From Fibrobacter sp. (GTDB taxonomy: Bacteria > Fibrobacterota > Chitinivibrionia > Chitinivibrionales > Chitinispirillaceae): DNA of 37,410 nt. Shown here in pieces: positions 18,626 to 37,410 of this stretch (position 1 is the first letter of the stretch; the number at the start of each line of letters is the position of its first letter). The DNA lies in the NCBI GenBank assembly GCA_012523595.1, contig JAAYIG010000085.1:1-37410 (forward strand). Direction: 5' to 3'. The position numbers and the translations under genes were made by a program. The notes below the pieces were generated by a model. It worked only from the letters and a program-made list of their open reading frames with translations, searched no databases and was not told where the DNA came from.

Positions 18626-21046
18626 TCATGCCTTCTCCTTTACAGGTGGGATATAGCTTTTCAGCATCAAAGAAAGAGTTACAACAGTTACTGAACTGAA
18701 TGCCATAGCAAGGGCAGCCAGTTCGGGACGAAATGTTATCTTCCAGATCGGATACAGGACACCGGCAGCCAGGGGGATCAGAGCGGCATTGTAGGCAAAT
18801 GCCCAGAAAAGATTCAACTTTATTCTTGAAAGCAGTTTACGACCTAACTGAATCGCAGCCACAACATCTACAGGGTCACTCTTTACAAGCACAATCTCGC
18901 CGCTCTCAAGTGCTATGTCAGTTCCGCTACCAATGGCTATCCCTATATCCGCCTGCGCCAATGCAGGAGCATCATTGATACCATCACCGACAAAAGCTAC
19001 AGATTTGTTGTTCCCCTGCAGTTTCTTTACCTCTGATGCCTTATCACCTGGAAGAACCTCTGCCAGGACATTTTTTATTCCAAGTCTCTCAGCAACTGAG
19101 ACGGCAGTTCTGCGATTATCACCGGTCATCATTACCACCTCAAGCCCCATCTTTTCAAGTTCCCTGACAGCCTTCGCAGATGTATCCTTGGGCGGATCAG
19201 CTATTGCCAATACTCCTCTTAACTGCTTCTCCTCAGCAACCAGCACAACAGTCTTTCCTTCCGCCTCTAAAGGAGTAATCCTTTGCTCCAGAGAATCAAA
19301 TTCTACTCCGTTTTCCTGCATCAGTTTCCGGTTTCCAATCAATACGATTTTATTGTCCAGGGATGCGCTGACGCCTTTACCCTCGAGTGTGTTAAAACCG
19401 GTTACACTCCTTATTTCAAGTCCTCTTTCCGATGCCTTTTCTACTATCGCGTCAGCTAAAGGATGCTGAGATCCTTTCTCTACAGATGCGGCCATGGAAA
19501 GCAGTACATCATCGGAACAGTTTACACCTGAAAGATCTGTCACTTCCGGTTTCCCTCTTGTCAGTGTTCCGGTTTTGTCAAAAACAACTGTGGTGATTTT
19601 CTGAGCGTTTTCAAGCGCCCCGCCATTTTTTACCAGTATGCCAAGCTCTGCGCCTCTTCCAATGCCGACAGTTACTGCTGTCGGGGAGGCAAGCCCCAGG
19701 GCACAGGGACATGCTATCACCATAATAGCTATGAGAGTTGTAAGGGCGAAAAGCAGAGTACTTCCAACAACAAAATACCAGATAGAAAATGTAACCAGTG
19801 CGATGACAAGAATAAATGGTATAAAATAGCTTACTACTTTATCTGCTATCTGCTGGATCGGTGGTTTAGATCCCTGCGCATCCCTGACAAGTTTTATTAT
19901 CTGGGAAAGAACTGTATCACTCCCCACTCTTTCGGCTCTGAAATTCAGCACTCCATGCTGGTTGATGGTACCACCAACCAGGGGGTCACCCTCTTTTTTC
20001 GCCACTGGAATTGGCTCACCACTTATCATCGATTCGTCAACCCTGCTCTCCCCCGCTGTTACCGTACCGTCAACCGGGATCTTTTCTCCCGGTTTGACAA
20101 TGATTACATCTCCGATCCTGACCTCCTCAACGGGTACCTTTCTCTCCCCCTTTTCGTCAATAATTGTCGCTGTCCTGGGTTGAAGCCCAATAAGCTTTTT
20201 GATCGATGCTGATGTCTTTCCCCGAGCCCTTGTTTCAAGATAGCGGCCAAGTGTCAGAAATCCGGCAAGCATGATAGCAGTATCATAAAACATGAACTCA
20301 TGAGTGAGTATAATACCAAAGGTACCCATGACACTGGCAACGAATGCAGTCCCGATACCCATGGCATACATTACATCCATGGTCAGATTGAATCTCCTGA
20401 GTGCCGCAAAAGCAGCTTTAAAGATAGGCCATGAGACATAGATAAATACAGGAACCGATATAATCAGTGAAAAAATACCGTAATCAAAAGGCAGAGTATG
20501 AGGAAGAAACATTAAAACCATAAGAGGAATGCTGACAGCAAAAGAAACTATAATCCTGCGGATTCTCCCATTCTGCTCTATGCGACGCAGACGCTCACTT
20601 TCCTCCTCTCCAGCTTCACCTGCAACTCCCCTGTATTCATATCCGGCTTTAGTTACAACGTTGCGAAATTCTGAAACCGAAACATTATCCGGATTATAAG
20701 TGACAAATGCGCTCTCAGTCGCCGGATTTACAGTGACATCAACAACCCCGTCAAGTCCGGCAATTGCATCCTTTACTTTTGCCGCACAGGAGGCACAGTG
20801 CATACCACCGATTGAGATTGTCACATTCTGGTTGACAGCCTTATAGCCAGCCTCACTTATGGTCTTTTCCATATCGGTAATTGAAACCCGAGAGGGATCA
20901 TATTTAACAAACGCAGTCTCATTACTGAAATCTACATGTGCCTCGATGATTCCTTTTCTTCCGGAAAGAGCTCTCTCTAGGTTTTTCGCGCAATTGGCAC
21001 AGTGCATACCGGAAATTTTTATTCCGGTTCTCTTTGATTCTTCCAT
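18626..21046 (-). CDS. copA: Cu(I)-exporting P1B-type ATPase
   Basis: 806 residues. It pumps Cu(I) out of the cytosol across the inner membrane using ATP. Two N-terminal heavy-metal domains carry MHCANC (14-19) and MHCASC (about 84-89). Then come the membrane helices, the actuator motif SGEPIP, the CPC copper site in IACPCALGL (about 446-448), the phosphorylation site DKTGT (about 489-493), the HP motif GSQHPLA, and [16 protein letters not shown]. NxxxxYN in [12 protein letters not shown] of the penultimate helix fits the Cu(I) subgroup. AGG precedes the ATG. A perfect palindrome sits about 50 bases upstream. It faces the pseudokinase gene tail-to-tail with 17 bases between. The cusCBA unit in this window would carry on the export to the outside. 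Confidence 0.95.
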
Positions 21047-28589: not shown

Positions 28590-31500
28590 TCAGTTGGATC
28601 TCTTCCTGTACTCCCATTCTTTTAACCAGCAATAAAGTATCGGAGCCTGGAAAATTGTGGTCAGTTCCAGGAGCATTCCACCAAATGATGGTATTGCCAT
28701 AGGAACCATCACATCTGCTCCCCTGCCAGTTGATATCAACACCGGCAGAAGCGCAAGGATGGTAGTGGCTGATGTCATAAGTGCCGGCCTCACCCTTCGC
28801 GTAGCCGCCTCAACAGTCATCTTCCGGATTTCTTCAATCGAAGAAGGCTTTTTTCCATTGAATCGCTGGTCAAGGTAAGTGCATATTAATACTCCATCAT
28901 CAGAGGCAATCCCAAACAGCGCCAGAAATCCTACCCAGACAGCCACACTAAGGTTGATAGTGTGGATATTGAAGATCTCCCGTAAATTGATTCCAAACAG
29001 GGAAAAATCCATAAACCATCCCTGCCCGTACAGCCATATCAACAGGAAGCCTCCAGACCATGTTGTTATTATCCCCAGAAACACCAGTGATGTGGTAGAG
29101 ACTCTCTTGAACTGAAAGTAAAGCAGCAGAAAAATCAGAAAAAGAGCCAGAGGCAGCACAAGAGCAAGTGTCTTCTCAGAACGCACCTGATTCTCGTAAC
29201 TTCCGGAAAACTGATAGGAAACTCCTGCAGGCAGTTTCAGTTCTCCGGAATCAATTTTACTTTTAATATAGGACTCAGCCGCTTTCACAACATCCACTTC
29301 AGCGTACTGAGGCTTTTTATCAAAAAGAACATAGCTGGTAAGAAATGTCTCCTCCCCCTTTATCATGTCCGGCCCGCGCCTGTATGAAACTGATGCAATC
29401 TGTCCTAATGGAATCTGAGCACCATCTATCGCAGGGACAAGTATCCTTTGAAGTGTCTCAGGATTATCCCTCAATTCTCTTGGATAACGTACCCTCACCC
29501 CATACCTTTCACGCCCCTCTATAGTGCTGGTAATCCCTTTCCCCCCTGCAGCAATCTCGATTACATTCTGAACATCCTCGATTCTAAGCCCGTAGCGGCC
29601 GATTGCCTCCCTGTCAATATTTATCTCCAGATAAGGTTTACCCGCGATCCTGTCGGCAATCACTGCAGATGGTTCAACCAGCGGAACTTCTTTCAACAGT
29701 TCCCCCAGCTTTATCCCCACCTCTTCAATAGCCTCCAGTGATGGACCCTTTACTTTGATACCCATTGGAGCCCTCATACCGCTCTGAAGCATCACTATTC
29801 TGGCTGCAATAGGCTGCAACCGGGGAGCACTGGTGACACCTGTCATCTTTGCTGCTTTCACAATCTCTTCCCAGATCTGATCCATATGCCGTATCTCAGG
29901 TCTCCATTGACGAAATGGTTTTCCACCCTTATCTGGAATCAGTCTGCCTTTTTCATCAAGAACAAACTCCTTTTTCTTTTTGTCATATTTGTATCTCACT
30001 CTCCTGCCGGCCTGGTCGAGAATGTATTCAGGTTTCACAGTTATTACAGTTTCGAACATGGAAGTTGGAGCCGGATCAAGAGCGCTCTCCACCCGTCCGA
30101 TTTTCCCAACTACACTCTCCACCTCGGGAATCGCCTTGATAAACACATTCTGCTGATTCATGATCTCCTGTGACGCACCAAGCGAAAGATGTGGCATTAC
30201 AGTTGGCATGTAAAGAAACGATCCCTCGTCAAGGGGAGGCATGTATTCCTTGCCCAGTCCCGGGAATGCATGGGCCAGAGCCACAACAGGTCTGGTATGA
30301 CTGATAAATTCCGGCAGGAAAAAGAAAACCCTGGAAAAACCCAGCCACACACATGCTCCTGTCAACACAATTAAAAAAACCGGCAGAACAAATGCATATT
30401 TTCTCTCTAAAAACCAGGACAGAAACCGGGGATAGTACTTTCCAAACTGTGAAAACAACCCCATTAATCCTCCAATAAATACAGCTACAAAGAGTATGTT
30501 TGAAAGGGTGGATCTCCCCGCACCAAGAGGGAGCCATTTAAGTGCCAGAAGTAAAGCTATAACAGCTACACAAATACCATTCAGAATCAGAGGTAATCTC
30601 ATTTTCCATCTATCCGGAAGATAGTTAACCAATAGGAATCGTGTTCCGGACGCGACTGTAATCAATCCAACCCACCAGGAGAGCTTTATCATCACCGCAA
30701 TACCTGCAATGATTGCAAAGATGCTCCAGAAGACCCTTGTCCTTGTACCGATTTTCTTTTTCATGAAAAGAATGTGTGCCAGCGGGGGTATTATAGTAAG
30801 CGCAACTATTATCGATGACGCAAGAGCGAATGTCTTTGTGTATGCCAGAGGCTTGAAGAGTTTTCCCTCCGATGCTGTCATCATAAAAACCGGCAGAAAA
30901 CTGACAATAGTCGTTGAGCATGCAGTCAGAATCGCCCCTCCAACCTCAGATGCGGCACGATAAACTACATTTTTTACATCCTCATCTCTGGAAGCTGCAT
31001 CCAAATGCTTAATAGTATTCTCAGTGAGAATTATCCCCATATCTACTATGGTTCCAATAGCTATAGCTATCCCTGAGAGCGATACTATGTTGGCATCGAC
31101 ACGAAAAAGCTTCATACCAATGAAACTCATCAGAACCGCCAGAGGTAAAACACCCGATATGAGAACCGAGCTTCCCAGATTGTTAACCATAATGAGAATA
31201 ACAATGATGGTTATGAGTATCTCCAGGTAAATGGCCTCGTTTAGTGTTCCAAGCGTCTCTTTTATCAATCCCGTACGGTCATAAAAAGGGACAATTTTTA
31301 CCTGGCTTTCGGTACCATCAGCGAGAGTTTTCACAGGCAGTCCGGGCGAAATCTCCCCAATTTTCTGTTTTACATTTTTAATAGTCTGAAGAGGATTTTT
31401 GCCATACCTTGAAACAACCACTCCCCCTACCGCTTCCACACCCTCTTTATCGAGTGTCCCTGTTCTCAGAGCCGGCCCCAGCGTAACCTTCGCTACATCT

Positions 31501-32360
31501 TTCACTCTGACAGGAGTGTTATTCCTGACTTTGATAACAGCACTCTCAAGATCTGAAATAGTCTTTACAAATCCGATACCCCTGATCATGTACTCGACTC
31601 TGTTTATCTCGACAGTCCGCGCACCCACATCCATATTACTCATCCGAACTGCATGATATACCTGCTCCAGCATTACATCGTGAGCACGCATGGCATCCGG
31701 ATCGACATCGATCTGGTACTCCTTTACAAATCCCCCGATAGAGGCAACCTCGGAGACTCCTTCTGCTGAAGCAAGCGCATAACGTACATGCCAGTCCTGA
31801 ATTGAACGCAGTTCCTGGGGATCCCAGCCACCGGTAGGATTTCCATCCTTATCCCTGCCCTCGAGAGTATACCAGAAGATCTGCCCCAATGCTGTAGCAT
31901 CAGGGCCCAGAGCAGGTTTTACATCCGCAGGAAGAGTTCCGGCAGGAAGTGATGCGAGCTTCTCAAGAATCCTGCTTCTTGACCAGTAAAAATCCACCTT
32001 CTCATCGAAAATCACATATACAGTTGAAAAACCGAACATGGAATAACTGCGGACACTCTTCACCCCTGGAATTCCAAGAAGAGAAACGGTAAGAGGATAT
32101 GTAATCTGATCCTCAACATCCTGAGGAGACCTCCCCATCCAGTCTGTAAAAACTATCTGCTGATTCTCCCCAATATCCGGTATCGCATCAACAGACACTG
32201 GATTTCTGGGCAGCCAGTCGATCTCCCAGTCAAACGGTGCCACGATTATCCCGGCTACGACAATGGCAATGGCAATAAGCGCCACAACCAGTTTGTTATC
32301 AAGGCAGAACCAGATAACCTTGTCCACTAAAGTCTCCGGTTTTTTATCATTTATATCCAT
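28590..32360 (-). CDS. cusA: CusA/CzcA-type heavy-metal RND efflux pump
   Basis: 1256 residues. The inner-membrane proton-driven pump of a Cu(I)/Ag(I) tripartite exporter. Features: ENQQIVFTDWMGRSPQDVEDQITYPL, SMFGFSTVYVIFDE, the TM4 proton-relay region GTIVDMGIILTENT, the Met-rich periplasmic segment around RIVMLQSGMRAPMG (Met residues are Cu/Ag ligands in CusA), and the TM10 motif GIASDDGVLICTYLDQRF. It is about 200 residues longer than E. coli CusA (1047); the excess lies mostly between about 545 and 660 (extra hydrophobic segments) and about 770-830 (a charged stretch). This long form is common outside Proteobacteria. GAGGTGAT precedes the ATG; 68 bases separate it from cusB. Confidence 0.95.
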   Translation of the reverse strand: MDINDKKPETLVDKVIWFCLDNKLVVALIAIAIVVAGIIVAPFDWEIDWLPRNPVSVDAIPDIGENQQIVFTDWMGRSPQDVEDQITYPLTVSLLGIPGVKSVRSYSMFGFSTVYVIFDEKVDFYWSRSRILEKLASLPAGTLPADVKPALGPDATALGQIFWYTLEGRDKDGNPTGGWDPQELRSIQDWHVRYALASAEGVSEVASIGGFVKEYQIDVDPDAMRAHDVMLEQVYHAVRMSNMDVGARTVEINRVEYMIRGIGFVKTISDLESAVIKVRNNTPVRVKDVAKVTLGPALRTGTLDKEGVEAVGGVVVSRYGKNPLQTIKNVKQKIGEISPGLPVKTLADGTESQVKIVPFYDRTGLIKETLGTLNEAIYLEILITIIVILIMVNNLGSSVLISGVLPLAVLMSFIGMKLFRVDANIVSLSGIAIAIGTIVDMGIILTENTIKHLDAASRDEDVKNVVYRAASEVGGAILTACSTTIVSFLPVFMMTASEGKLFKPLAYTKTFALASSIIVALTIIPPLAHILFMKKKIGTRTRVFWSIFAIIAGIAVMIKLSWWVGLITVASGTRFLLVNYLPDRWKMRLPLILNGICVAVIALLLALKWLPLGAGRSTLSNILFVAVFIGGLMGLFSQFGKYYPRFLSWFLERKYAFVLPVFLIVLTGACVWLGFSRVFFFLPEFISHTRPVVALAHAFPGLGKEYMPPLDEGSFLYMPTVMPHLSLGASQEIMNQQNVFIKAIPEVESVVGKIGRVESALDPAPTSMFETVITVKPEYILDQAGRRVRYKYDKKKKEFVLDEKGRLIPDKGGKPFRQWRPEIRHMDQIWEEIVKAAKMTGVTSAPRLQPIAARIVMLQSGMRAPMGIKVKGPSLEAIEEVGIKLGELLKEVPLVEPSAVIADRIAGKPYLEINIDREAIGRYGLRIEDVQNVIEIAAGGKGITSTIEGRERYGVRVRYPRELRDNPETLQRILVPAIDGAQIPLGQIASVSYRRGPDMIKGEETFLTSYVLFDKKPQYAEVDVVKAAESYIKSKIDSGELKLPAGVSYQFSGSYENQVRSEKTLALVLPLALFLIFLLLYFQFKRVSTTSLVFLGIITTWSGGFLLIWLYGQGWFMDFSLFGINLREIFNIHTINLSVAVWVGFLALFGIASDDGVLICTYLDQRFNGKKPSSIEEIRKMTVEAATRRVRPALMTSATTILALLPVLISTGRGADVMVPMAIPSFGGMLLELTTIFQAPILYCWLKEWEYRKRSN

Positions 32361-32428
32361 TAATCACCTCGTTTTACAGACTATAATGAAAGGAGGTTTT
32401 TATCTCCATTCCGGCTCCCGCACTGCTT

Positions 32429-34414
32429 TTAATGCCCGGAAATTCTCTCTTTCTCTCCACATCTGAGCATTGCTTCACCGAAATATGGATTGTTAATGAC
32501 CTCTGTTTCCTGTAACCAATAAGCTCCTTTGTTCGACAGAGCCATTGGACAGAAAGCAACATACCTCTGACCGCCCTGGTGTCTGTAATGCTTCTCAAGA
32601 GCGATTATCTGAGTTGATACTTTCTCAAACGCCACTCTGGCTCCGGTAAGATCTCCGATTTTTTCCACATGGGCAAGATCAGCAAGAAGAGCTTTACTGC
32701 TTACATTCCAGCCATTATACACCTTTCCTTTTCCCAACTTCACGTTAGATATAACTTTGCGTATCTCATCCAAACCTTTTCTCGCCTCATCGAGATCATC
32801 TTTAACCAGTGCACTGCTGGCCCTGAAATATGCTTTGTAAATTGCATCGAGCCCGGTACGGAATTCTGGAGACACCGAAACAGATGCTCTATCAGCTATC
32901 TGCATGCCTTCCTTTTTTCCTAATCCCGCATGTCCGGCGTGCATTGCTGAACCACTCCCTCCCACGGGATTCATCATGCTGGGTTTTGCCCGTATCTGCA
33001 GTTCACTGTCAATCCTGAAGGCACCGTTAACAACAACCTTTTCTCCTTCGGAAATTCCGGATTTAACAACATAGTAATCCCCTGCCCTCGGCCCCAGTAC
33101 CACTTCCCTTCCCTCGTAAGTGGTTCCTTTCTCACTGGAAGCGGTTTCCACATAGATAATTGCTCTCTCACCGGTAAAAAGAGGAGCTGTTGCCGGAATG
33201 AGAAGAGGACTGAGTTTCCCGTTTCCTGAAGTAACATATCCCAGTGATTCAGCCGGAACCAGAGGCATTCCGCAGATATCACATGTCCCGGGGCCGTCCT
33301 TTACGATTTCCGGATGCATCGGGCTTATCCATTTCCCTTTCAGTGATGCATTATAAACGTTACCTGAGGCTGAAATCTGTGCCTTCGCCACAGCCCTCAC
33401 AAGCATCTCCGGCTTCAGTTTACCACTGCTGTTATCCGTTACTACCCTTATCTTTACCGTGCGGGCCATGGGATCCACCATTGGATCAATAAAGGATACA
33501 GTACCACTGAAAGTCTCACCCGGAAATGCCTCAACTGTAAACTGAACCCTCTGCCCGACTCGCAGCCAGACAAGATCCGATTCGTATGCATTGAGCTCGA
33601 TCCATAATTTCTTCAGATCCGCTATGGATAAAATCGGCACCCCTGTCTCCACATAACTCCCAGTAGTAGCCATCTTCTCTATTACCACTCCGCTCTGACT
33701 TGCTCTAATGGTCATGTGGTCTGATGGAGCACCCCGGGTCAACACAGCATCAAGTTCATCTTCGGAAAAACCAAGCAGACGAAGTTTCTCCTTTGCAGCC
33801 TCCAGTGTACCTCTGGCATTGGATTTCACAAGCTCACTTGCATCAGGAGAGATCGCCTCCACTGCTCTTGCTGCCCCAAGCAGTTCCTGCTGCAGCAAAA
33901 CCAGCTCAGGGCTGTAGATTAACGCAAGATGATCACCTTTTTTTACCTCCATGCCGGTGTAATCAACAAAAAGCCTGTCAATCCGTCCCTTTACCCTTGA
34001 TGAAATCGACTCTACTCGCCTCTCATCTATTACTACCTTTCCTGACATTCTTATCTCCGATGAGGCATTACGGCGGATTGCAGGCGCAGTCATTATTCCA
34101 GCCAGACGACGGGCACTTTCTGACAGGGTCAATTGACGCGGATTATCGTCTGCATCTCCCAGTGCATCGGTCTCCAGAGGAATCAGATCCATAAAACAAA
34201 TCGGACACTTCCCCTGCTTGTTCAGTTTTATCTGAGGATGCATCGAGCAGGTCCAGAATGTCTCTTTACCATGGTCATGCCCTGTCTCCTTTTCCGACAG
34301 TTCCGCTTTACTGCCAACTTTTCCGCCTGTCCTGCTTCCGATCTGAAAACTGGAAACAGCGACAAGAATTACAAGAAGCGGGAAAATGATTTTTTTAATA
34401 TTTACTTTTTTCAT
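32429..34414 (-). CDS. cusB: CusB-type membrane fusion protein with two metal-binding ribbons and a DUF3347 tail
   Basis: About 661 residues, far longer than E. coli CusB (about 407). Order: signal or anchor (8-24), heavy-metal-binding ribbon WTCSMHPQI-x7-CPICFMDLIP (about 54-80), membrane-fusion core (hairpin, lipoyl and barrel, about 100-345), a second ribbon WISPMHPEI-x6-TCDICGMPLVP (about 361-387), the remaining core (GISEGEKVVVNGAFRIDSELQI), and a C-terminal DUF3347 (about 505-661) with AFCPMAL and GEAMLRCG. It links CusA to CusC and hands periplasmic Cu(I)/Ag(I) to the pump; the added domains give at least three metal sites. The ATG at 34414 has GGAG at good distance. An upstream ATG at 34432 overlaps the cusC stop (ATGA). 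Confidence 0.93.
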   Translation of the reverse strand: MKKVNIKKIIFPLLVILVAVSSFQIGSRTGGKVGSKAELSEKETGHDHGKETFWTCSMHPQIKLNKQGKCPICFMDLIPLETDALGDADDNPRQLTLSESARRLAGIMTAPAIRRNASSEIRMSGKVVIDERRVESISSRVKGRIDRLFVDYTGMEVKKGDHLALIYSPELVLLQQELLGAARAVEAISPDASELVKSNARGTLEAAKEKLRLLGFSEDELDAVLTRGAPSDHMTIRASQSGVVIEKMATTGSYVETGVPILSIADLKKLWIELNAYESDLVWLRVGQRVQFTVEAFPGETFSGTVSFIDPMVDPMARTVKIRVVTDNSSGKLKPEMLVRAVAKAQISASGNVYNASLKGKWISPMHPEIVKDGPGTCDICGMPLVPAESLGYVTSGNGKLSPLLIPATAPLFTGERAIIYVETASSEKGTTYEGREVVLGPRAGDYYVVKSGISEGEKVVVNGAFRIDSELQIRAKPSMMNPVGGSGSAMHAGHAGLGKKEGMQIADRASVSVSPEFRTGLDAIYKAYFRASSALVKDDLDEARKGLDEIRKVISNVKLGKGKVYNGWNVSSKALLADLAHVEKIGDLTGARVAFEKVSTQIIALEKHYRHQGGQRYVAFCPMALSNKGAYWLQETEVINNPYFGEAMLRCGEKERISGH

Positions 34415-34428
34415 GAGACTCTCCGGAT

Positions 34429-35724
34429 TCATAATTCTTTGATTTCAGTTTTTCCCCGCATTGCATCTATGGATGCAAGCTGTTTTCCGTTTCTTGCCCT
34501 TTCCTCAGCCAGATCTTTTTCCAGATCAAAAAGAGTCCTTTGAGCATCTAAAAGCTCGATAACCGGTATCAGACTGGTTCTGTAACCTGAATACATCAGC
34601 TCCAGAACCTGGCGTGCCTGAGGAATCAGCACATCTTTAAGTAAAGTAATTCTGCGCTGTGAATCAGTATATTCATTGAACATCTGCTTTGCTTCAGATA
34701 ACATTGAATTCAGCATGTCCTCTCTCTGATTTTCCATCTTCTTCTGCATATCTGTTGAGCTTGAAATCTCTTTTCTTATCCTGTTAATCCAGAGCGGGAC
34801 GTTTATATTTACACCAACTCTCCAGCCGCTTTCTCCCCCCATCGATGAGAATTTATTGGAAGATTCATACATGTGCTCTACAGCGATCGAGAAATCCGGC
34901 AGAAAGCCGCTCTTAGCCATGTCCACCATCGAACGTGCCGCATCGATATCAGATTTCATGGCCTGTAAAGATGGATTGGAATTGGCCACTTCATGAAAGA
35001 GATCATCTATCGATAAGACCCCTTTCATATCAGGAATGGAATCGGGAAATGGAAAAAAACTGCCTGAATCGAGAGCAAGAAGAGAAGCCATCCTGGCACG
35101 CTGCGAGTCACCCATCAGCTCCATGCTCTTTATCTCATCCTCAAGGATCGCAATCTCGACCTGTACCTTCAGAAGCGAAGCCTGAGTAGCAGTTGCATTT
35201 GCATAATTGGTGCGGGTAACAGATTCCATCTGCTTGAGCAGTTCCAGATTCTGCTTCTGAATTTTGATCATCTGGCCTGTTTTGTAAAGATCAACAAATG
35301 CGGTTCTGATATCCCGGACAAGGTCCGCTTTTTTCTCCTGAAGCCTGGCACGCAGCTTTTTCAGAACATGACTCTCACTCTGGTGCTTGATAAAATATTT
35401 AGTCGGAAACATAAACATCTGAGAAGCACCGATTGAGGCCAGATTCATTCCATCCTCAATATCCGCCTGGGCCATAATCATGGGATCAGGCAGAGAGCCT
35501 GCCAGGGAAAGATTCTTTTCCTGAGATGCGATCTCTTTTTCCGCAGCCTTTATTGCCGGATTATTCCTGAGAGTGTATTCGATATATGACTCAAGTGAGT
35601 GTTCAACAACGGAACCAGCCTCTTTTTTCTCTTCGGCAGACAACACTACTGCAAAAAAAGAAGCCCAAAGGAACAAGATAAGTATCAGTCCGCGTGCAAA
35701 CAGTTTTTTGTTCCTGTTTTTCAT
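34429..35724 (-). CDS. cusC: TolC/CusC-family outer-membrane efflux protein
   Basis: 431 residues. A signal peptide (LILILFLWASFFAVVLSA) is followed by the repeated TolC layout: NPAIKAAEKEIASQEKNLSLAGSLPDP in the first half and NPSLQAMKSDIDAARSMVDMAKSGFLPDFSI in the second, each followed by long coiled coils. A trimer forms the outer-membrane channel of the efflux pump. No lipobox is present, unlike E. coli CusC. GGAGG lies five bases before the ATG. Its stop overlaps or nearly abuts the cusB start, so cusCBA is one unit. A palindrome lies 38 bases upstream in the gap to the Cys-rich peptide gene. Confidence 0.92.
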   Translation of the reverse strand: MKNRNKKLFARGLILILFLWASFFAVVLSAEEKKEAGSVVEHSLESYIEYTLRNNPAIKAAEKEIASQEKNLSLAGSLPDPMIMAQADIEDGMNLASIGASQMFMFPTKYFIKHQSESHVLKKLRARLQEKKADLVRDIRTAFVDLYKTGQMIKIQKQNLELLKQMESVTRTNYANATATQASLLKVQVEIAILEDEIKSMELMGDSQRARMASLLALDSGSFFPFPDSIPDMKGVLSIDDLFHEVANSNPSLQAMKSDIDAARSMVDMAKSGFLPDFSIAVEHMYESSNKFSSMGGESGWRVGVNINVPLWINRIRKEISSSTDMQKKMENQREDMLNSMLSEAKQMFNEYTDSQRRITLLKDVLIPQARQVLELMYSGYRTSLIPVIELLDAQRTLFDLEKDLAEERARNGKQLASIDAMRGKTEIKEL

Positions 35725-36321: not shown

Positions 36322-36595
36322 AGAGGGATAGAAAGTTGTCCTCATTATTTGTATGTTCACCTGTATTGCTTTCTGTGATTGCAAGACACTTGAAAGCATC
36401 ACCACACACTTTTCAGTAAAGGCATAGGGCAGGTATTTAACATTCTGACCCCTTTTCAGGATCACATTTTGTGATCTTGAAGCTCCGCCTCTTCACTTGT
36501 AAGCTGTTTCAACTGTGAATAAAAAGAGCCGCATCCGGGGAAGATTCCAAGGCTTGAAATAAGGAGAAAAATGCGGGAAAGTGAGAAGAAGAAAC
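36322..36595. other. Gene-free stretch between the cus promoter and the tRNA-Leu scar
   Basis: No coding frame has support on either strand. The only structure noted is GATCACA-TTT-TGTGATC at 36460-36476, a perfect 7-bp inverted repeat with a three-base centre. It has no T-run after it. Confidence 0.5.
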
Positions 36596-36625
36596 AAAAA
36601 AGGCAGTCTTTTGGTAAAAGCTACC
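36596..36625 (-). terminator. Terminator of the former tRNA-Leu gene
   Basis: On the minus strand GGTAG-C-TTTT and AAAA-GA-CTGCC pair (one G-U) around ACC, followed by six T. It lies 33 bases downstream of the tRNA-Leu fragment, in the place expected for that gene's terminator, although the tRNA itself is now incomplete. Confidence 0.7.
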
Positions 36626-36658
36626 TTAAATTGCGTAATTTCGCGGTTTTTGATTATT

Positions 36659-36713
36659 TGCCGAAGCCCGGAGTCGAACCGGGATGGTGTTGCCACCGCT
36701 GGATTTTGAGTCC
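36659..36713 (-). pseudogene. 3' half of tRNA-Leu(CAA), probable attachment site
   Basis: On the minus strand the sequence from GGACTCAAAATCC through the variable arm GCGGTGGCAACACC, the T arm CCCGG-TTCGACT-CCGGG and the acceptor strand CTTCGGC-A matches a tRNA-Leu. The anticodon loop CTCAAAA gives anticodon CAA. CCA is not encoded. The 5' half is absent: no GCCGAAG acceptor strand and no D arm lie upstream, and pairing of the anticodon stem fails from position 28. A 3' tRNA fragment next to a clean tRNA terminator is the typical right- or left-hand attachment site left by a tyrosine integrase. It implies that an intact tRNA-Leu and the far end of the element lie to the right of the window. 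Confidence 0.82.
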
Positions 36714-36802
36714 TGAACACCGCTTAAAAACCCTCAAAAATGGCGTTTTTAGCGCAATTTCAACAGGTCATATTTACTATTACAGGTTATTGCGGGATAT
36801 AG

Positions 36803-36820
36803 TTGGGCAATTTTGGGCAC
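36803..36820 (+). repeat. Two TTGGGCA direct repeats one helical turn apart
   Basis: TTGGGCA at 36803-36809 and 36813-36819, ten bases apart start to start, about 90 bases inside the presumed element from the tRNA fragment. Short phased repeats next to an att core are typical of integrase arm sites. Confidence 0.45.
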
Positions 36821-36860
36821 TCACTTGTAAATTAGTACCTTTTTCAGATTACTATGAAAG

Positions 36861-36897
36861 CCGTATCTGGGATTCTCCCCCGGATACGGTTTTTTTT
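36861..36897 (+). terminator. Strong Rho-independent terminator with no gene before it
   Basis: CCGTATCTGGG (36861-36871) pairs with CCCCGGATACGG (36878-36889; one G-U pair) around a short ATTCT-type loop, followed by eight T (36890-36897). No plus-strand coding frame with support ends within 600 bases to its left. It lies 28 bases before the sigma-factor start. Confidence 0.85.
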
Positions 36898-36925
36898 ATT
36901 TCCCCCTCTTCCCTGAAGGAATGCT

Positions 36926-37410
36926 ATGAGATCTGAAGCTGAAGCAGTAAAGCTGGCAATAAGCCACAAGGGCTATCTGGGAACCGTATGCAGTCAATAC
37001 CTCAAAATGGGTATAACCTTTCAGGAGCTTTTCTCGATCGGCTTTATAGGCTTAGTTGCGGCGGCAAAGCGTTTCGATGAATCCAAGGGGCTGAACTTTA
37101 TAGCCTATGCAGATTCTTACGTGAGAAGTGAAATTTTAAAGGCTCTCAAGAAGCAATCAATTATCCGCATTCCGTTTAATGTACAACAGACAATCAAACA
37201 GGTACGCAAGGCCATTGCTGAACTGAAGACAAAGACAGAACAGGAACCGGATATACAAGCGATTGCAGAGTATACCGGACTGCCTCACCGCAAAGTAATA
37301 AACGCAATATTTCTATCAGAACCCATTATCAGCCTGAATACTCACACTAAGGGAGAAAATGAGGCAGAGCTAATTGAGTTCATACCTTCCGACACTCCCC
37401 CGGATACTGA
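36926..37410 (+). CDS. Sigma-70-family RNA polymerase sigma factor, 3' end outside window
   Basis: 161 codons are open from the ATG at 36926 to the window edge. AAGGA lies five bases before the ATG. Region 2 is clear: ITFQELFSIGFIGLVAAAKRFDESKGLNFIAYADSYVRSEILKALKKQSIIRIP (about 31-84), containing the core-binding and -10 recognition helices, with SIGFIGLVAAAKRFD matching RpoD/RpoS-type 2.2. Region 3 starts at TEQEPDIQAIAEYTGLPHRKV. A region 1.1 is absent, so it is a short primary-like or group 2/3 factor. It lies just inside the presumed integrated element, so it may serve that element's own promoters. Region 4 is not in the window. Confidence 0.85.
   Translation, partial: MRSEAEAVKLAISHKGYLGTVCSQYLKMGITFQELFSIGFIGLVAAAKRFDESKGLNFIAYADSYVRSEILKALKKQSIIRIPFNVQQTIKQVRKAIAELKTKTEQEPDIQAIAEYTGLPHRKVINAIFLSEPIISLNTHTKGENEAELIEFIPSDTPPDT

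Follow-up and report, generated by a model that had tools for sequence, protein, structure and literature searches.

The tRNA-Leu junction at the contig end

The window analysed in this work is the whole of contig C85 (37410 bases) from the Fibrobacterota assembly G000, which comprises 4.1 Mb in 260 contigs. It was compared chiefly with G001 (JAAYYB01), a MAG titled 'Fibrobacter sp.' and the sole congener found. The window carries a gene for a metal P-type ATPase (18626-21046) and a heavy-metal efflux operon (28590-35724) encoding an RND pump, a CusB-like adaptor with a metal-binding domain and an outer membrane channel. The features of its right end are as follows.

36556-36658, no strand assigned: chromosomal 3' flank of tRNA-Leu, common with the intact G001 locus (comparison with G001)
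about 36600-36627, minus strand: former tRNA-Leu terminator, a hairpin and U-run lying toward the chromosome (folding; flank common with the congener)
36659-36713, minus strand: displaced 3' 55 nt of tRNA-Leu(CAA), from the anticodon loop to the 3' end; putative attR core (comparison with relatives)
36714-36802, no strand assigned: AT-rich element side of the junction (weak likeness to G014 and to an arm of the tRNA-Glu element in G001)
36803-36819, plus strand: TTGGGCA repeat pair, proposed arm-type sites of an integrase (repeat search; analogous pairs in G001)
36856-36894, plus strand: terminator-like hairpin with U-run, where the homology with the G001 element begins (folding; comparison with G001)
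36926-37410, plus strand: sigma-70 family gene, truncated by the contig end, with regions 2 and 3; first gene of the element (Pfam; homologues)

A reading based on the sequence only had described 55 bases of a tRNA-Leu 3' half, loss of tRNA identity inside the anticodon stem, the terminator of the former tRNA on the left, and phased TTGGGCA repeats followed by a sigma-70 gene on the right. Each of these features was recovered by the comparisons below. On the minus strand, 36659-36713 shows a single mismatch with the 3' 55 nt of the G001 tRNA-Leu(CAA), and another relative is matched by BLAST over 56 nt with E = 7e-25. Identity to the intact genes of the relatives breaks off at 36713, on the 5' side of the anticodon stem. 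ARAGORN and Rfam called no tRNA at 36659-36713 because the site consists of a tRNA fragment only.

On the chromosome side, 36556-36713 is 81% identical to the intact tRNA-Leu locus of G001. The hairpin located in this common flank has an MFE of -10.4 kcal/mol (z = -2.55, 5 of 200 shuffles folding equally well). Left of 36556, synteny with G001 is lost; this change in gene order, situated on the 3' side of the tRNA, is a separate rearrangement. SprT and mnmA, which neighbour tRNA-Leu in G001, were located on contig C173 of G000 (L144 8542-13626), next to a putative permease gene. In addition, 36518-36551 contains an inverted and degraded copy of the hairpin sequence of the element (82% over 34 nt), which now folds poorly and may have been left by an earlier insertion into this tRNA.

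A tRNA gene divided between two contigs

An intact tRNA-Leu(CAA) gene was not found anywhere in the G000 assembly. A search with the G001 locus showed that positions 1-22 of another contig, C197, match exactly the 5' 22 nt of tRNA-Leu. Beyond this 5' end, C197 carries Sua5/YrdC, purE and purD, identified in G001 as the genes preceding tRNA-Leu. Taken together, C197 and the window fragment represent 77 of the 84 nt of the gene, with 1 mismatch against G001, and 7 nt are assigned to neither contig. Judging from these sequences, the tRNA-Leu gene of G000 is divided between C197 and C85, in a manner consistent with a site interrupted by an insertion. The earlier proposal of an integration boundary at tRNA-Leu(CAA), for which an empty site was to be sought in relatives, is borne out by G001, whose contig C256 presents the contiguous flank, tRNA-Leu and Sua5/purE/purD without interruption.

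The gene is whole in nearly all the genomes of the same family, with the exception of G014, which has a fragment only, and of G012, in which a contig begins within the gene. A split or intron-containing tRNA was dropped as an explanation, the gene being whole in relatives. The G014 sequence (C55, L103 6901-6954) is a second 3' fragment of tRNA-Leu(CAA), in another genus of the family, and bears a TGTGCTA pair 10 bp apart on its far side; no intact tRNA-Leu was found in this assembly. Internal stretches resembling tRNA-Leu(CAA) were also observed in G007, at C3:4060-4087 (L104, about 870-900 from the 3' end) and on C110 (L105 3129-3157). They span 28-29 nt covering the anticodon and the variable arm, and the end of one of them coincides with that of the window fragment in tRNA coordinates.

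The lack of an intact tRNA-Leu(CAA) gene in an assembly that is 99.5% complete would also be expected if the element did not restore the tRNA and the host gene were truly broken, a case of tRNA-dependent lysogeny as described for phage Gaia at tRNA-Leu-CAA (PMC10865867). Indeed, an attR by itself does not tell how long the core carried by the phage is. This possibility is nevertheless considered improbable: C197 stops short of the telling point, and both elements found in G001 (see below) adjoin an intact tRNA.

Repeats, hairpin and sigma factor gene on the element side

The first bases beyond the tRNA fragment, 36714-36820, bear a weak resemblance to the attR arm on the integrase side of a G001 element inserted at tRNA-Glu, and to the element side of the G014 tRNA-Leu fragment. 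The corresponding scores were reached by 0 of 300 and 2 of 300 shuffles, respectively, which speaks for this stretch being a genuine attR arm. The minus strand of 36740-36845 was considered as the tail of a lost integrase gene, on the basis of a weak likeness to a G014 stretch and to integrase-side arms, and was rejected as too short. Two TTGGGCA copies lie 10 bp apart, at 36803 and 36813, and the 37.4 kb contain 1 further copy when both strands are counted. On its own the pair is weak: when the 143-nt stretch was shuffled 1000 times, 41 of the shuffled sequences held a 7-mer repeat as close.

Between the repeats and the sigma gene, 36856-36894 folds into a stable hairpin (MFE -24.5, z = -6.4), the U-run of which ends about 30 nt before the sigma start codon. 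A plus-strand search upstream of this gene revealed no consensus promoter. From these two observations, the hairpin would lie either in the leader of the sigma mRNA or at a position where it shields the sigma gene against transcription coming from outside.

The open reading frame running from 36926 to the contig end matches sigma-70 region 2 (E = 3.5e-9) and region 3 (E = 7.3e-10) in Pfam. It ends before region 4, which is seen in the G001 orthologue, so that regions 2, 3 and 4 of a group 3-like sigma-70 factor are all present when region 4 is taken from that orthologue. Among the 41 genomes searched with the protein, all of which possess several sigma-70 genes, the only close relative is that of G001 (89% of amino acids); the next best match reaches 36%, and the gene is thus found at 89% or more in 2 of 41 genomes. 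Its identity to phage sigma factors in a phage collection is about 30%, and viral contigs searched with the protein gave no match. Alignment to RpoD from the same genome shows SY (YADSYVRS) in place of the WW pair of region 2.3 (YAIWWVRQ), and the region 4.2 helix reads LSHTSIWTIK in the G001 orthologue against LTNERVRQIE in RpoD. The altered positions are promoter contacts in E. coli sigma-70, which suggests that this sigma factor may select promoters differing from those of RpoD.

Two related elements in the congener

G001 harbors two elements, each recovered in pieces, at tRNA-Asn (contigs C80 and C88) and at tRNA-Glu(CTC) (contigs C334 and C75). Both follow a common plan, in which one end carries the intact tRNA and the other the integrase and a 3' tRNA fragment, with pairs of TGTGAA repeats, specific to each element, at the two ends. 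On C80, the intact tRNA-Asn is followed by an TGTGAACACG pair, a hairpin, the sigma gene and a capsid gene. The sigma gene is the first gene of the element and starts 267 nt past the tRNA; small open reading frames come next, then the HK97-type capsid gene 1.3 kb further on (Phage_capsid_4, E = 1e-34, with siphophage matches). C88, which homology suggests should be joined to C80, encodes an integrase of 367 aa (PF00589, 1.4e-20) adjoining a 54-nt 3' fragment of tRNA-Asn, and a TGTGAA pair is found at the end of the integrase gene.

The second element shows, on C334, the intact tRNA-Glu(CTC), an TGTGAAGGC pair, a hairpin, a sigma gene of a second type, a primase-like gene and a tape-measure gene. 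On C75, the integrase adjoins a 47-nt 3' fragment of tRNA-Glu, again with an TGTGAAGGC pair. Viral contigs searched with this integrase gave no match.

Two side observations concern the tRNA-Asn site. On C88, the sequence lying on the chromosome side of the fragment (L099 9382-9663) is similar to the attL flank of that element, at 74% over about 300 nt; this similarity takes in the repeats and the hairpin and may reflect the end of an older element. In G000, a tRNA-Asn gene is absent among the 39 tRNA matches; with its sister G001 bearing an element at this gene, another element may occupy the G000 tRNA-Asn site.

The window element shares with the G001 elements a hairpin and sigma gene, a capsid gene, repeat pairs spaced by 10-11 bp and a 3' tRNA fragment. 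It differs from them by the tRNA used, by its motif (TTGGGCA instead of TGTGAA) and by the opposite orientation of the core relative to the sigma gene. The tRNA fragments of all three (Leu in the window, Asn and Glu in G001) begin in or near the anticodon arm, and the anticodon is one of the standard subsites of integration into tRNA genes (PMC4383910). Paired sites on both sides of the core are typical of the arm-type sites of lambda-like integrases in tRNA-targeting phages (PMC10865867). Since such pairs, spaced by 11 bp, flank the core as analogous sequences in the attL and attR of G001, the TTGGGCA pair is best read as a candidate arm site of a third integrase.

Element DNA shared between the two genomes

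DNA homology between the window and C80 starts at the hairpin base, at 36857, and shows 91% identity, the final 149 nt of the window being 100% identical. Considering the behaviour of short-read assemblers, this identity is the probable reason for the contig break. The element would continue on contig C20 of G000 (6.5 kb), according to the gene order of G001: C20 begins within an HK97-type capsid gene, 97.5% identical in DNA to that of G001 over 445 nt, and carries beyond it another sigma-70 gene, distinct from that of the window, together with a HicA/HicB pair. The latter is a toxin-antitoxin pair (L114 1270-1831) adjoining the second sigma gene.

The chromosome near tRNA-Leu, by comparison, is 71-78% identical between G000 and G001 over most of its length, against 91-97.5% for the element DNA. 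The element DNA has therefore been shared more recently than the divergence of the hosts, and the same figures point to the sigma gene as phage cargo. An exception close to the locus, L102 16313-18609, is 89% identical to G000 C125:3665-5959 amid neighbours at 71-78%, and is possibly another transferred gene.

The earlier suggestion that the sigma factor is cargo of the element thus holds well, its only close homologue being located at the end of a capsid-bearing element in G001. Several sigma-70 genes are present in every genome searched, as would suit an ordinary host gene lying beside an old tRNA pseudogene. This explanation is very improbable and largely refuted, given that the orthologue is restricted to the congener, in a different chromosomal place beside a capsid gene, and that its DNA identity is higher than that of the chromosome around the site. 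Searches of the phage collection with the boundary DNA, and of viral contigs with the junction sequence, the tRNA core and the repeat pair, yielded no match.

A probable prophage and its orientation

Taken as a whole, these data indicate that a prophage, or an element resembling one, is inserted in a Fibrobacterota tRNA-Leu(CAA) gene and that its attR forms the right end of the window, with a probability estimated at about 0.85. The element lies on the right because of the orientation of the tRNA fragment, in agreement with the sequence-only reading. The structural genes associated with it, namely the HK97-type capsid (C80 of G001, and in truncated form on C20 of G000) and the tape measure (C334), are linked to the window by homology. 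No terminase or portal was detected in the open reading frames of the element contigs scanned with Pfam or PHROGs, in assemblies that are gapped. A phage satellite was also considered, some element contigs having a capsid gene without terminase; the tape-measure gene found at tRNA-Glu in G001 makes a complete phage the more probable reading in these gapped assemblies.

In the proposed mechanism, a tyrosine integrase would recombine the phage attP with the anticodon-stem region of the tRNA-Leu gene, the TTGGGCA pair acting as an arm-type site. The window fragment would be the original 3' half, now displaced, while a phage-borne copy of this half would restore the gene at an unassembled attL. 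The sigma factor would then bind the host RNA polymerase core and direct it to phage promoters.

Neither attL nor a phage-type integrase related to those of G001 was found in the G000 assembly, and no phage-type integrase occurs within 1.5 kb of tRNA-Leu(CAA) in relatives. The three PF00589 proteins of G000 are neither close to the integrases of the G001 elements nor tied to the element. A XerC-like protein at the end of C203 was rejected as the missing integrase on the basis of its sequence and lack of element context.

The orientation of the window junction departs from the layout of the G001 elements. There, the core of the tRNA is directed inward, toward the sigma gene, and the integrase adjoins the fragment at the opposite end. 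In the window, on the contrary, it is the sigma end that adjoins the tRNA fragment, and the core is directed outward. Either the G000 element has a reversed integration module, with the integrase beside the unassembled attL, or this end was rearranged, or the contig is chimeric.

According to the second possibility, attR and arm sites would remain from a decayed, integrase-less element, to which the hairpin-sigma-capsid block was later joined by inversion, recombination or a second insertion. In addition to the opposite orientation, this would account for the G001 homology beginning exactly at the hairpin base, for the G014 fragment, whose arm stretch is similar and whose surroundings hold no integrase up to 1.1 kb away, and for the degraded inverted hairpin copy left of the window fragment. 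Such a history is rather unlikely, since the identity of 91-97.5% with G001 shows that the block is not old, and since an integrase at the element end opposite the fragment is ordinary and requires no rearrangement.

The third possibility, an element end joined in silico to the tRNA-Leu flank by assembly or binning, draws on the same orientation, on the contig break at sequence identical to G001, as short-read graphs produce at shared sequence, and on the fact that C197 too breaks within the tRNA. In the compared DNA, the 36713 junction shares no sequence long enough to mislead an assembler, the fragment and the hairpin are separated by 143 nt of unique sequence, and the tRNA gene is split regardless because C197 ends within it. 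A chimera is, consequently, quite improbable.

Returning to the prophage interpretation, a more general scheme can be proposed tentatively, being possible rather than probable. The three elements would form a prophage family with one body (hairpin leader, sigma, capsid) and interchangeable integration modules swapped at the hairpin, each having its own tRNA target (Asn, Glu or Leu) and arm-site motif. Two phage sigma factors would run the programme, the first behind a conserved terminator-like leader that may constitute a switch.

Relation to known systems

Insertion at tRNA genes and sigma factors encoded by phages are well documented, and the window is a fresh example of both. As in the Islander tDNA islands (PMC4383910), a 3' tRNA fragment is displaced without overlap of a conserved gene, the subsite is centred on the anticodon, and the element is on the 5'-end side of the tRNA with the chromosome on the 3' side. 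Unlike these islands, an intact tRNA and an integrase were not recovered in G000, and the island therefore fails the Islander integrase filter as it stands. The mycobacteriophages Omega and Gaia use attB-11, a tRNA-Leu-CAA, which is restored by Omega and not by Gaia (PMC10865867). The attachment site is thus of the same isotype, and pairs of arm-type sites flank the core in such integrases; the host of the window element, however, belongs to another phylum, and the likeness is one of attachment site and layout. The sigma factors of Bacillus phages, also sigma-70 family genes on phages or prophages, are described chiefly as sporulation-like in phages of Bacillota (PMC9429907), whereas the host here is a Fibrobacterota MAG.

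Among the papers searched, six mention both Fibrobacterota and prophage and none names prophage in its title or abstract together with the phylum, and the integrated phages of this phylum therefore appear little described. Fibrobacterota are known for the breakdown of cellulose and chitin. The three related junctions supply exact att sites for integration tests. If the sigma factors act as proposed, these elements would represent temperate phages reprogramming the host RNA polymerase in Fibrobacterota.
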